From the NCBI GenBank assembly GCA_945875915.1, contig CAMCMT010000019.1, positions 1-47,317 of the forward strand: DNA of 47,317 bases. The letters are read 5' to 3'. The stretch comes from Synechococcus sp. UW140 (lineage in GTDB: Bacteria > Cyanobacteriota > Cyanobacteriia > PCC-6307 > Cyanobiaceae). This document shows, piece after piece, positions 3,330 through 18,962 of this stretch (the stretch's first letter is position 1; each line of letters opens with the position of its first letter). Under the pieces are notes generated by a model that was not told the origin of the DNA, searched no databases, and was given only the letters and a program-made list of their open reading frames with translations. The translations under genes and the position numbers were made by a program.

Positions 3330-4610
3330 TTGGCCGGTCGTTGGCCGGGCTGGGGTTTTCAGGGCTCCCAGGGCAGGGCCCCAGGCCCGGTTCCACCGGC
3401 TGCCAGCCTTGCCCTAGGCGCGGCACGGCGGTTGAACGTTCTTGGGGGCGAGGGGGCGCATGCCACAGGCACCATCGAGGAAGGCTCCGTCCGCCTCCTG
3501 GTAGGTAGCGGCTTTTTTCGACCTGAATCACGGCCTTCACGGGATTTGGGCGTGCTTCTGGCCCAGCAGCTGGCGGCCCAGCGGCGCAGCGACAGGCCCG
3601 AAGTCCCGGGCCTGCGCGTGCTGGATCTGATGGCCGGTTGTGGCATTCGCAGCCTGCGCTACGGCGTGGAAGCCGGGGCGGCCGAGGTTTGGGCCAATGA
3701 CGCGGACCCTGATCGCCTGGCCCTGCTCGAGGCCAACCTGGCCGGTTTAGGCGGTGGGCGCTGCACGACGCACAAGGCCCAAAAGCTCCTGGCTAGCTGC
3801 CTCTTGCGCGAGCAGCGCTTTGACCTGATCGACCTCGATGCCTTTGGCTGTCCCAGCGCCTTGGTGCCCCTGGCCCTAGAGGCCCTGGCCTTTGACGGCG
3901 TGTTGTATCTGGCCAGCACCGATGGCCGCTCGCCCACCGGCCACGACCGCCCGGCGGCGATCCGCTCCCTGGGGGCGGCGGCCCGGGCCCATCCCGCCAG
4001 CTGGGAGCTGGCCCTGCGGCTGCAATTGGGGGTGCAGGCCCGGGCCGCCTGGGTGCTGGGCCGGGGGATTGAGCCGGTGTTCAGTTTCAGCGAGGGCCGC
4101 ACCTTCCGTACGGCGGTGCGGTTGCGGCGCAAGAGCGGGCCCCTGGCGGAACGCCAGCTGGGCCTGCTGGCCCATTGCCACGGCTGCGGTGACCAGCAGG
4201 TCCAGAGCCTGGTCCAGCTGCGCCAGTGGCGACCTTGCCTCTGCCCGGACCAGGCCAACGCCAGCCTGTCGATTTCCGGGCCCCTCTGGATCGGTCCCCT
4301 GCAGGATTTGGCCAGCCTGGAGGCCATGGCCTCGATTTCAGGGAGCAGCTCAGCCAGCCTCAGCCCGGCGGGGGCGCGGTTGCTGGCCCAGTTGCGGCGC
4401 GACGACGGCCTGCCCGCCCGCTGCTGGCCCCTGGCTGAGCTGGCCAAGCGCCTGGGCGGCGGACCGCCGCCCTTGGAGCCCCTGGTTCAGGCCCTGCGGC
4501 AGCAGGGCTGGAGCGCCCAGGTCAGCGGGGTGATGCCGGCCCAACTGCGCTGTGATGCTCCCTGGGAGCGGCTGCTCCATGTAGCAGCCCATGTCGCCCG
4601 GCCTGGTTAG
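3330..4610 (+). CDS. tRNA (guanine26-N2)-dimethyltransferase, Trm1 family
   Basis: Trm1 enzymes use S-adenosylmethionine to methylate N2 of G26 (and G27 in some bacteria) in tRNA. The Rossmann methyltransferase core is clear: VLDLMAGCGIRSLRYGVEAG binds the cofactor, VWANDADPDRLALLEAN follows, and the Trm1-type motif DLDAFGCPSALVPLA with YLASTDGRSPTGHD marks the family. A Cys pair near the middle (CHGCG) and a later CLC may be the remains of the zinc site found in some family members. The true start is uncertain: ATG 3330 gives 426 residues with an odd head, while TTG 3432 would begin just before the conserved GSVRLLVGSGFFRP segment. Divergent from the hydrolase. Confidence 0.85.
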   Translation: MAGRWPGWGFQGSQGRAPGPVPPAASLALGAARRLNVLGGEGAHATGTIEEGSVRLLVGSGFFRPESRPSRDLGVLLAQQLAAQRRSDRPEVPGLRVLDLMAGCGIRSLRYGVEAGAAEVWANDADPDRLALLEANLAGLGGGRCTTHKAQKLLASCLLREQRFDLIDLDAFGCPSALVPLALEALAFDGVLYLASTDGRSPTGHDRPAAIRSLGAAARAHPASWELALRLQLGVQARAAWVLGRGIEPVFSFSEGRTFRTAVRLRRKSGPLAERQLGLLAHCHGCGDQQVQSLVQLRQWRPCLCPDQANASLSISGPLWIGPLQDLASLEAMASISGSSSASLSPAGARLLAQLRRDDGLPARCWPLAELAKRLGGGPPPLEPLVQALRQQGWSAQVSGVMPAQLRCDAPWERLLHVAAHVARPG

Positions 4611-16291: not shown

Positions 16292-16771
16292 ATGGCCCCC
16301 ATTCGTGCCTTGACGCCCGCTGATCACTCCGAGTTGCTGGCGATCTATGGCGACGCGGTGTCAAGCCAGGCTCCTGCGCTTTACAGCGACCGTCACGTCG
16401 CTGCCTGGCTGAGTCAGGTTGGTGCCCCTGGGTCTTTGGCGGCCGCCCTCCACCAAGGCAGCGGCTTGGTCAGTTGTAGGGAGTCGGGCGAGATCGAAGC
16501 CTTTGCCCTGATGGAGCCGGTCGATCGCCTGTCTTTGCTTTATTGCCGCGGCCGTTCCGCCCGCCAAGGCCATGCCACCCGCCTGTTGATCCGCTTGGAG
16601 GCCTTGGCAGCAAGCCAGAACCTGCGCCAGCTCCGCACCGAAGCCAGCCAGTTTTCCCGCCCCCTTTTGCTAAGGCGGGGCTGGAGAGTGGTGTGGATCG
16701 AAGCTCTGTTGATCAACGGCATCCAGTTTCGGCGTTACCGCATGACCAAAGCCCTCCCCACTGTGAGCTGA
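16292..16771 (+). CDS. GNAT-like N-acetyltransferase
   Basis: A 159-residue protein with a GNAT pattern: IRALTPADHSELLAIYGDAV at the N-terminus, LSLLYCRGRSARQGHATRLL as the acetyl-CoA-binding segment (with Arg-x-Gly-x-Gly/Ala replaced by SARQGHA), and ASQFSRPLLLRRGWRVVWIE as the C-terminal part. The substrate is unknown. Its TGA stop overlaps the ATG of the Nif11-like/cupin gene (TGATG), so the two products are probably made together. Confidence 0.82.
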   Translation: MAPIRALTPADHSELLAIYGDAVSSQAPALYSDRHVAAWLSQVGAPGSLAAALHQGSGLVSCRESGEIEAFALMEPVDRLSLLYCRGRSARQGHATRLLIRLEALAASQNLRQLRTEASQFSRPLLLRRGWRVVWIEALLINGIQFRRYRMTKALPTVS

Positions 16772-17376
16772 TGGCTGAAGCCCAATTGCAGCAGTTTCTT
16801 GAGAAGGTACGCCAGCTCAATGCTTTCGTGGCCCTCAGCGAAGCCGATCCTGGCTTCCGGCAGCGCTTGAGCGACTGCGCCAATCACCAGCAGGTGGTGG
16901 ATCTGGCCAGCAGCTGTGGTTTTGAGATCGCCAGGCGCTGGGGAGAGCCCCCTAGCCAGTCCAGTCAGGCGATGGTGTCGATCGGTGGTGACGGGGCAGA
17001 TCTCCAGGACGTGGGCCTGGAGCTGCTGGCTGCTGGGGACAACGGTTCAGGCCAGAACCTGCTTTCACGACCCTGTCCCCCTCCAGGTCTGGAGCGCAGC
17101 GACCGGTTGCTGGGCCAGGGCCAGCTGCGGCTGGAGCTGATCCATTCCTGCGAGTTCGCCAATCCCCCGGGCTTCTGGTACGACCAGATCGAAAGCGAAT
17201 GGGTGCTGCTGCTTCAGGGCGGCGCGCAGTTGCGCTTTGCCGATGAAGCCCAGACCCGCTGCCTCAAGGCGGGCGACAGCCTGTTGATCACACCTAGGCG
17301 ACGTCACCGGGTTGAGGCAACCGATCCTGCTCCGGGAACCCTCTGGCTGGCTCTGTTCTGGTCGGGGTGCGGCTGA
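16771..17376 (+). CDS. Nif11-like domain fused to a cupin domain
   Basis: A 201-residue protein with an unusual layout. Residues 1-60 resemble the Nif11 domain: AQLQQFLEKVRQLNAFVALS, then DPGFRQRLSDCANHQQVVDL and ASSCGFEI. After a Gly/Pro-rich linker, residues 110-200 form a single cupin: NPPGFWYDQIESEWVLLLQG, GAQLRFADEAQTRCLKAGDS and LLITPRRRHRVEATDP. The usual cupin metal-binding His cluster is mostly missing; Asp, Glu and His near these motifs might still bind a metal. Nif11 domains are best known as leaders of ribosomal peptides, but no Gly-Gly cleavage site or Cys/Ser/Thr-rich core follows. It is coupled to the upstream GNAT gene, and its 3' end overlaps the convergent PsiE-like gene by 83 bp. 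Confidence 0.78.
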   Translation: MAEAQLQQFLEKVRQLNAFVALSEADPGFRQRLSDCANHQQVVDLASSCGFEIARRWGEPPSQSSQAMVSIGGDGADLQDVGLELLAAGDNGSGQNLLSRPCPPPGLERSDRLLGQGQLRLELIHSCEFANPPGFWYDQIESEWVLLLQGGAQLRFADEAQTRCLKAGDSLLITPRRRHRVEATDPAPGTLWLALFWSGCG

Positions 17377-17884
17377 TGTGGGACTGGCGCACCAGCCAGT
17401 AGGCGCTGGAGAGGGCCAGCACGGCCACCCCGAGCCCCGCCAGTTCGCCGGGGGTTTTGAGCATCCCCTCCGGCATGACGATCACCTTGCGGGCCAGGGC
17501 CGTGAGGGCCGTGATCAACACCAGCTCGATCTGCACAACATGCTCGCGCAGGTAGGCTGTGAGATTTTGCAAGACTTCCAGTGCTATCAGCAGGCCGAGG
17601 ATCTGGTCGAGAAACCGGGTTAGGTGATCGCCGTGCCAGTGGTTCGCGCCACCGGTTAATAGGCCGATCAGGGTGTGCAGCAGCTCAAGAGTTGCTACGA
17701 CCAGCACCACAATTAAGGCAGCGGCTAGGACCTTTGCCACTTGCCGCTCGATGCGATGGACCTGGCGCAGGAAGGGCTGGTCACCAAGGCCCTTGGTTTG
17801 TAGGCGCTCGCCCAACCGGCCGAAGAAGCCGCACAGGCGTTGGGCCAGGGGTTGCGGATTTTGGCTGCTTAGGGGCGTTGCCAT
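17294..17884 (-). CDS. PsiE-like phosphate-starvation membrane protein
   Basis: Resembles the PsiE family (phosphate-starvation-inducible E), small membrane proteins of unknown mechanism. Of 196 residues, about 55-155 contain four hydrophobic segments: VLAAALIVVLVVATLELLHT, GLLIALEVLQNLTAYL, VQIELVLITALTALARKVIV and LAGLGVAVLALSSAYWLV. The spacing and the charged EVLQNLTAYLREH and ARKVIV parts fit the family. The C-terminal 83 bp overlap the end of the cupin gene in convergent orientation; the last 30 residues are Pro/Arg-rich and may be partly a read-through tail. Confidence 0.8.
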   Translation of the reverse strand: MATPLSSQNPQPLAQRLCGFFGRLGERLQTKGLGDQPFLRQVHRIERQVAKVLAAALIVVLVVATLELLHTLIGLLTGGANHWHGDHLTRFLDQILGLLIALEVLQNLTAYLREHVVQIELVLITALTALARKVIVMPEGMLKTPGELAGLGVAVLALSSAYWLVRQSHISRTPTRTEPARGFPEQDRLPQPGDVA

Positions 17885-18150
17885 TACTGGTTAAAGGGGG
17901 CGTAAATCGGTTTGGCCGGTGTATCGCCTTTGGGATTCACGATTTTGGTGTCACAGGTGATGCTGCCATCGGCGGCCGTGAAGCAGTTCTTCGGCTCAAT
18001 CTTGGTTTCCGGACCGATGTTGCTGCCAGGACCGAGCAGGAAGCGTTGGCTCTGGGCTAGGCCTGGGCCGGCCAGGGCTGCCGCCAGGCCCAGCCAGGCG
18101 ACCAGGGTTTGGATGAACTTGGCTGCTAGGGGCTGGGGACGGGGGACCAT
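17884..18150 (-). CDS. Small secreted protein of unknown function
   Basis: An 88-residue product with a signal peptide (LVAWLGLAAALAGPGLAQ) and a short mature part containing the conserved-looking NCFTAADGSITCDTKIVNPK with two Cys residues that could form a disulfide, ending PAKPIYAPFNQ. The start chosen is ATG 18150, 24 bp below the longest start at 18174. Its stop region touches the ATG of the PsiE-like gene (both at 17884), so the two genes are probably translated together. No family name is recognised. Confidence 0.7.
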   Translation of the reverse strand: MVPRPQPLAAKFIQTLVAWLGLAAALAGPGLAQSQRFLLGPGSNIGPETKIEPKNCFTAADGSITCDTKIVNPKGDTPAKPIYAPFNQ

Positions 18151-18225
18151 GGCGATTGCTACAACGGCCCCCACTCTGCCTGCCCTGGCGGCGGTTGGCC
18201 CATTGGGATTGGCTAGTCCCGCGGT

Positions 18226-18564
18226 TTAGCCGCCGGCTTGGCCGCCAGAGGCAGCCTCCTGACGAATCTCCTCTAGCAAGAGGTCCAGCTGGCCCAGGGA
18301 AGAGTCCAGGTCTGGGAGGAGGTCGTCTCCCCCGCTGCCTGGCTGCTCCTGCCAGAGCAGGTCGATGCCGCAGAGGCGCTCGGCCAGGCCGTTTAAGCCT
18401 TCGCGCCCATGGATCCGTTGCAGTTCCTCCAGCAGCACTGGCATGCGAATCGAGCTGACCCGCAGGGCCCGGCGCAGATCTGCCTGGGTGCGGCCGCTAT
18501 GGCGCAGCCAGTCCTTAAGAAAGCTCTGGAGATCCTCCAGATCTTCGAGACTGAGGCTGGCCAT
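18226..18564 (-). CDS. Conserved-looking protein with a possible helix-turn-helix N-terminus
   Basis: A 112-residue protein starting MASLSLEDLEDLQSFLKDWL, followed by HSGRTQADLRRALRVSSIRM and PVLLEELQRIHGREGL. The stretch GRTQADLRRALRVS resembles a short helix-turn-helix such as those in Xre-like proteins, but this is only a resemblance. The C-terminal half is acidic (DDLLPDLDSSLGQLDLLLEE) and ends Gly/Ala-rich. Its ATG overlaps the stop of the YkvA-like gene (TGATG on the minus strand), so translational coupling is expected. Confidence 0.7.
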   Translation of the reverse strand: MASLSLEDLEDLQSFLKDWLRHSGRTQADLRRALRVSSIRMPVLLEELQRIHGREGLNGLAERLCGIDLLWQEQPGSGGDDLLPDLDSSLGQLDLLLEEIRQEAASGGQAGG

Positions 18565-18962
18565 CAACGCACTAGGGGAAACCACTGGTCCAGTTTGCGC
18601 TGGGCCCGGGTGCGCACGGCATCATTCATGTGGCTGCGATAGAGGCCCAGCAGGGCCGTCATCGCCACCACATCATCGCCAAAGCCAGCCACGGGAATGA
18701 AATCCGGGATCAGATCCAGGGGAAATACCAGGTAGGTCAAGGCCGCCAGCATCGTGAGACGCACCTGGAAGGGCGTGTTGGCATCGAGCACCAGCTCGAG
18801 GCATTCGAGCGCCGGGCGGGCGACGCTGCGGCCCGCCCGGCGCAGTAGTTTCCAGAGCAGGCCCTCATCGATTTCGGCGCTGCCCAGCACCTCGGCCTCG
18901 ATGGTTTCCGGGGACTGGGTTGGCCCAGTTTGGGGCGGCGGGGACTGGGTTGATGGACCCAT
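18564..18962 (-). CDS. YkvA-like DUF1232 membrane protein
   Basis: Contains the DUF1232/YkvA motif: LTMLAALTYLVFPLDLIPDF, then IPVAGFGDDVVAMTALLGLY and RSHMNDAVRTRAQRKLDQWF. The PLDLIPDFIPVAGFGDD segment is diagnostic. Function is unknown; proteins of this type have one or two hydrophobic helices and often sit near membrane or stress genes. The long open frame to 19292 is not used because the region above 18962 is low-complexity and overlaps nothing conserved; ATG 18962 gives 132 residues. Confidence 0.85.
   Translation of the reverse strand: MGPSTQSPPPQTGPTQSPETIEAEVLGSAEIDEGLLWKLLRRAGRSVARPALECLELVLDANTPFQVRLTMLAALTYLVFPLDLIPDFIPVAGFGDDVVAMTALLGLYRSHMNDAVRTRAQRKLDQWFPLVR

Follow-up and report, generated by a model that had tools for sequence, protein, structure and literature searches.

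The main known role of the Nif11 domain is that of a RiPP leader. In Nif11-derived leaders (N11P, TIGR03798; prochlorosin-type), the helical module ends in a GG-type cleavage site, which is followed by a modifiable core (PMC2887384). A Nif11 domain is also found in Unk10 of marine Synechococcus, a non-precursor picocyanobacterial protein of 107-118 aa encoded in the phycobilisome/CA4 gene region and without assigned function (PMC3877281). In addition, the fusion of a Nif11 domain to a cupin is catalogued as TIGR03890 'nif11_cupin' (NCBIfam, hypothetical equivalog), again with no assigned function; because this NCBI family exists, the fusion itself is not new. A literature search for a paper on TIGR03890 found none. 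In a published BGC network, Nif11 domain/cupin appears with a putative epimerase in the set of putative RiPP clusters (PMC10783134), and a study of the iron response names a Nif11 domain-like gene without specifying it, which cannot be tied to the Nif11-cupin gene (PMC9723758). As for the cupin, related proteins of the 2opk / Reut_A1446 type stand alone, without a Nif11 domain, and the deposited title of 2opk, 'putative mannose-6-phosphate isomerase', is an annotation and not a test.

Here we describe a Nif11-cupin gene in a 47,317-nt stretch of DNA from Synechococcus sp. UW140 (the window). The encoded protein shares the helical Nif11 module with the RiPP leaders and is set beside Unk10 by description.

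Results

A Nif11 module joined to a cupin barrel

The Nif11-cupin gene lies at positions 16771-17376 of the window on the plus strand, as an intact ORF encoding 201 aa (coding 16771-17373). It is flanked by a GNAT gene and by a convergent PsiE-like gene:

16292..16771, plus strand: GNAT-family acetyltransferase gene (PF13673)
16771..16947, plus strand: Nif11 domain, residues 1-59 (PF07862, TIGR03890 positions 1-64, AlphaFold2 helices)
16948..17085, plus strand: linker, residues 60-105 (pLDDT, alignment gap pattern)
17086..17373, plus strand: cupin domain, residues 106-201 (2opk matches, AlphaFold2 model, conservation)
17294..17884, minus strand: PsiE-like membrane protein gene, convergent (PF06146, 91.6 bits)

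Over its whole length the protein scored 213.7 bits against TIGR03890 (cut-off 159.45; 213.2 bits in the genome search), and on this sequence evidence it is a member of that family, its two domains being arranged as in the model. Its linker is longer than in most members; otherwise it is an ordinary member. The original prediction had read the N-terminal ~60 residues as Nif11, which is confirmed by the match of residues 1-57 to PF07862 (E 5.3e-11, 43.1 bits against a cut-off of 23.8). The C-terminal half scored below the cut-off of Pfam Cupin_2 (21.8 vs 27.2 bits). Nevertheless, the predicted cupin joined by a linker was recovered by comparison with the solved cupin 2opk, in sequence (phmmer 1.9e-14) as well as in structure (Foldseek 9.5e-11; VIA-align Z 17.1 for 107 residues, 2.2 A, the next chain having Z 13.3), and by a barrel in the AlphaFold2 model.

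In this model (mean pLDDT 86, pTM 0.55, 59-sequence alignment), the Nif11 part has three predicted helices (residues 3-25, 27-34 and 39-48) and the cupin is an eight-strand barrel (residues about 105-197), modelled confidently with a block pLDDT of about 94-98. The linker is disordered over residues of about 60-95, pLDDT falling below 50 at residues 65-82 and 90-92, and it varies between relatives, with an insertion of ~20 residues that just 4 of the 95 sequences in the alignment possess. It had been claimed that the protein contains no Gly-Gly cleavage site; residues 72-73 are in fact GG, but because they lie inside this rare insertion they are no leader cleavage motif. Altogether, the protein is predicted to consist of a three-helix Nif11 module, a flexible linker and a single cupin barrel.

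In the cupin, the first two histidines of the classical motif HxH(x)3-4E ... H are replaced (Y137, Q139), while E143 and H179 are kept; among the fused forms, W136, Q139, E143, W144, H179, D185 and W192 show almost no variation. Cupins of the 2opk / Reut_A1446 type belong to the same subtype by sequence and fold and have the WYD....EWV and RHRV....W.A signatures in common with the fused cupins, although 2opk has a Ser at the position of Q139. Stand-alone cupins of this type (105-120 aa) also occur in other cyanobacteria, outside the picocyanobacterial family. We considered whether the fusion was born from a gene pair, and found no adjacent Nif11 at nine stand-alone cupin loci. HppE, which also has a helical domain and a cupin, was rejected as a two-domain likeness: Foldseek over both domains gave an rmsd of about 17-18 A and only the cupin part was comparable.

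The Nif11 half is under the stronger constraint

A comparison of 21 diverse Nif11 domains from fused and stand-alone proteins shows M1, F9, K12, L16, C36, H39, V42, G50, I53, R56, W57 and G58 to be invariant, and the domain closes with an invariant tail ending in RRWGE. C36, H39 and the RRWG tail are all missing from the five other Nif11 paralogues of the window's genome. These paralogues lie on separate contigs of the assembly (G000: C3, C18, C7, C45 and C1; loci L068, L069, L070, L072 and L073) and none has a GG-type core; one of them (L068) resembles the conserved '...GEYN' C-terminal group of the BGC network study (PMC10783134). Pairwise dN/dS, computed for three pairs, was 0.06-0.13 for Nif11 vs 0.20-0.42 for the cupin, the latter inflated because an 83-nt antisense overlap with the PsiE-like gene lowers dS; the dN of the cupin, however, exceeds that of Nif11 as well. 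A Foldseek search of the Nif11 model against the PDB returned no match at E up to 0.001, and by sequence the domain weakly matched 9zn4, a Nif11 domain protein (E 0.013).

Gene neighbourhood

The neighbour upstream of the Nif11-cupin gene matches the GNAT family PF13673 (31.4 bits vs a cut-off of 23.6), and the last base of its stop codon is also the first of the Nif11-cupin start codon (TGATG), the overlap itself having been noted originally. In freshwater/Cyanobium-type loci (short pieces aside), the GNAT gene immediately precedes the Nif11-cupin gene in the same orientation, and the two either overlap by 1 nt, as in the window and several of these loci, or are separated by a few tens of bases. 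The wider order is largely kept: trpA - mscS - YCII - cytochrome c - AbrB - GNAT - Nif11-cupin - PsiE - ... - sigma factor - DUF2214. Marine-type loci (L074-L102) have the Nif11-cupin gene in the same slot, between cytochrome c and PsiE, without GNAT, the GNAT-Nif11-cupin adjacency being lost in these lineages. In the marine-type genomes a GNAT homologue (38-54% identity) is located elsewhere; in G028, for example, it is far from the Nif11-cupin gene (2,370 kb vs 515 kb). It is likewise unlinked in genomes that carry the Nif11 domain alone (see below).

Downstream, the 3' end of the Nif11-cupin gene overlaps the convergent PsiE-like ORF by 83 nt (17294-17376). Match positions in several freshwater loci suggest a similar tail-to-tail overlap. 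Beyond PsiE, two small conserved minus-strand ORFs of 96 and 119 aa (window 17884-18585) have no Pfam match but occupy the same position in almost every syntenic locus.

The gene is restricted to one family and widespread in it

Among 399 genomes of the order, a TIGR03890 match was obtained in 344 and was above the cut-off in 175. The fusion was found in the picocyanobacterial family only: all 67 relatives in named genomes belong to the Synechococcus/Cyanobium/Vulcanococcus/Aphanothece group or to cyanobacterial MAGs (one record being labelled Microcystis elabens). The Nif11 match is significant and the fusion is conserved in close relatives, both of which the original prediction required. In a class-wide search, a 59-position profile of this Nif11 subgroup matched at full length (E <1e-26) in 36 of 36 same-family genomes, and gave nothing above noise in 255 other genomes, where three matches were weak and partial (E >1e-4). 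No copy of the gene was detectable in viral contigs and phages.

In a set chosen to include negatives of the 399-genome search, no match whatsoever was obtained in 17 genomes with a completeness of 90% or more, showing that the gene is widespread but not universal. It is absent altogether from the genera g22, g29 and g30 (G115, G191, G201 and others), from G141 and from several MAGs of g2; since some of these genomes are fairly complete, the gene is not strictly essential. In an rpoB tree, g22 and g30 are the deepest branches. The Nif11 subgroup gene may have arisen after g22 and g30 split off, or may have been lost there.

Small genomes keep Nif11 and lose the cupin

In small-genome genera (g2, g3, g4, g7, g13, g19, g21, g23 and g39), the TIGR03890 match is limited to model positions of about 1-60, and the corresponding ORFs encode only 59-63 aa, with a stop right after RRWGE or RRWGD. 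The TIGR03890 model does not describe these Nif11-only derivatives, which score 66-91 bits and fall below its cut-off. We call the small-genome lineages 'Prochlorococcus-like', a label of our own that goes by their genome size (1.3-2.0 Mb) and by a Pcb-antenna-like neighbour read by eye in some loci. A cupin query found no cupin homologue in 15 listed small genomes of g2, g3, g4 and g7, which indicates that the cupin of those 15 was lost and not separated by gene fission.

In G087 (L107, L123), the syntenic position of the fusion is taken by the Nif11-only gene, flanked by cytochrome c on one side and UPF18226/sigma genes on the other; cupin and PsiE are both gone, and the shared position speaks for orthology of the two forms. 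In G364 (L106/L125), the protein is full length, and the equivalents of Q139, E143 and H179 are lost in its cupin, making it an apparent decay intermediate. A cupin 'deletion' in a close relative (L061) proved to be a 100-N scaffold gap at 4274-4373, with no biology in it.

We assessed polarity with an rpoB-rpoC1-rpoC2 tree, in which the Nif11-only genomes are nested inside full-length lineages. All of them fall in one clade (99% support) together with the cupin-bearing G364, G033 and G028/G005, and G364 pairs with the Nif11-only G119 (99% support). Taken at face value, this topology implies more than one independent cupin loss, with several inner nodes weak (59-88%), and for this reason we claim no number of losses. 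The neighbours of the Nif11-only gene vary by clade (PAP/fibrillin-like, a desaturase-like ORF or Pcb-antenna-like, all named by eye), so guilt by association does not point to a partner of the Nif11 domain.

Discussion

The data show the architecture, the distribution and the loss of the cupin. The explanation that we favour overall, though tentatively, is that the TIGR03890 protein works through its Nif11 module, which would dock on a housekeeping partner, with the cupin as an accessory and dispensable part. The original prediction proposed that the Nif11-like part recruits a partner protein, and we retain this only as something we infer, here from conservation: a fixed CxxH loop and the RRWGE tail would form the docking surface for a putative partner present throughout picocyanobacteria. 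Because Nif11 is what persists in the most streamlined genomes, we place the essential function in this module; with its invariant C36, H39 and RWG, it is probably the working part and the cupin the accessory. The cupin may add dimerisation or small-ligand binding that modulates docking, and a dimerising or small-ligand module is its most likely nature. It decays in small genomes, and since it is still conserved in larger ones it has a role there. In streamlined lineages it would have been dispensable, and its decay and loss left the Nif11 protein of 59-63 aa.

The main rival reverses these roles: the cupin would be the functional part, catalytic or ligand-sensing, which Nif11 localises or regulates, and the stand-alone Nif11 proteins would be leftovers or have a different role. 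The cupin family is indeed old and occurs alone in other cyanobacteria, with no Nif11 adjacent at the loci read, and in Ralstonia (2opk), so this fold has a function independent of Nif11; moreover, Q139, E143 and H179 hardly vary among the fused proteins. However, many small genomes that have diverged from one another retain the Nif11-only gene with its invariant residues unchanged, as would not be the case for leftovers, and constraint is stronger on the Nif11 half than on the cupin. We consider a cupin-centred function somewhat less likely than the docking reading, and clearly more likely than a dedicated modification or sensing pair formed with the upstream GNAT, which the original prediction put forward. 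Such a pair is suggested by the close, same-strand arrangement in freshwater/Cyanobium-type loci. It becomes improbable given that marine-type and Nif11-only genomes carry their GNAT homologue at an unlinked site, which means that GNAT and Nif11-cupin are no conserved functional unit, and given that the trpA-to-DUF2214 neighbourhood is conserved as a whole, so that the adjacency mostly reflects vertical inheritance. As read from gene order, the upstream GNAT would be co-transcribed in some lineages and is not a required partner.

Less probable still is a RiPP precursor, or a remnant of one, in which a Nif11 leader precedes an unusual core. This reading draws on a partial likeness to the leader family TIGR03798 (26.4 bits) and on the placement of Nif11 domain/cupin among putative RiPP clusters. 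Yet the TIGR03798 score is under the leader cut-off of 32.3; the domain is followed by no conserved GG site and no core but by a variable linker and a folded cupin, in line with the substance of the original claim; a search for LanC-like proteins (LANC_like, PF05147) had no match in the genome; and in the stand-alone forms nothing follows the Nif11 domain. For these reasons the Nif11-cupin protein is not a precursor peptide, and our data argue against the RiPP reading of nif11_cupin in the BGC network (PMC10783134).

Returning to the docking reading that we prefer, its evolutionary form is one that we also advance with some reserve: a Nif11 module specific to picocyanobacteria (F9, K12, C36xxH39, IxRWG) would act as a housekeeping docking unit unrelated to RiPPs, born fused to a cupin and later stripped of it, perhaps repeatedly, in Prochlorococcus-type lineages; what remained would be a protein of 60 aa that even the smallest genomes known from free-living phototrophs have kept. 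The case points to a non-precursor role for a Nif11 domain that survives alone in streamlined genomes, and it therefore offers a clean 60-residue system in which to study the cellular role of the Nif11 domain.
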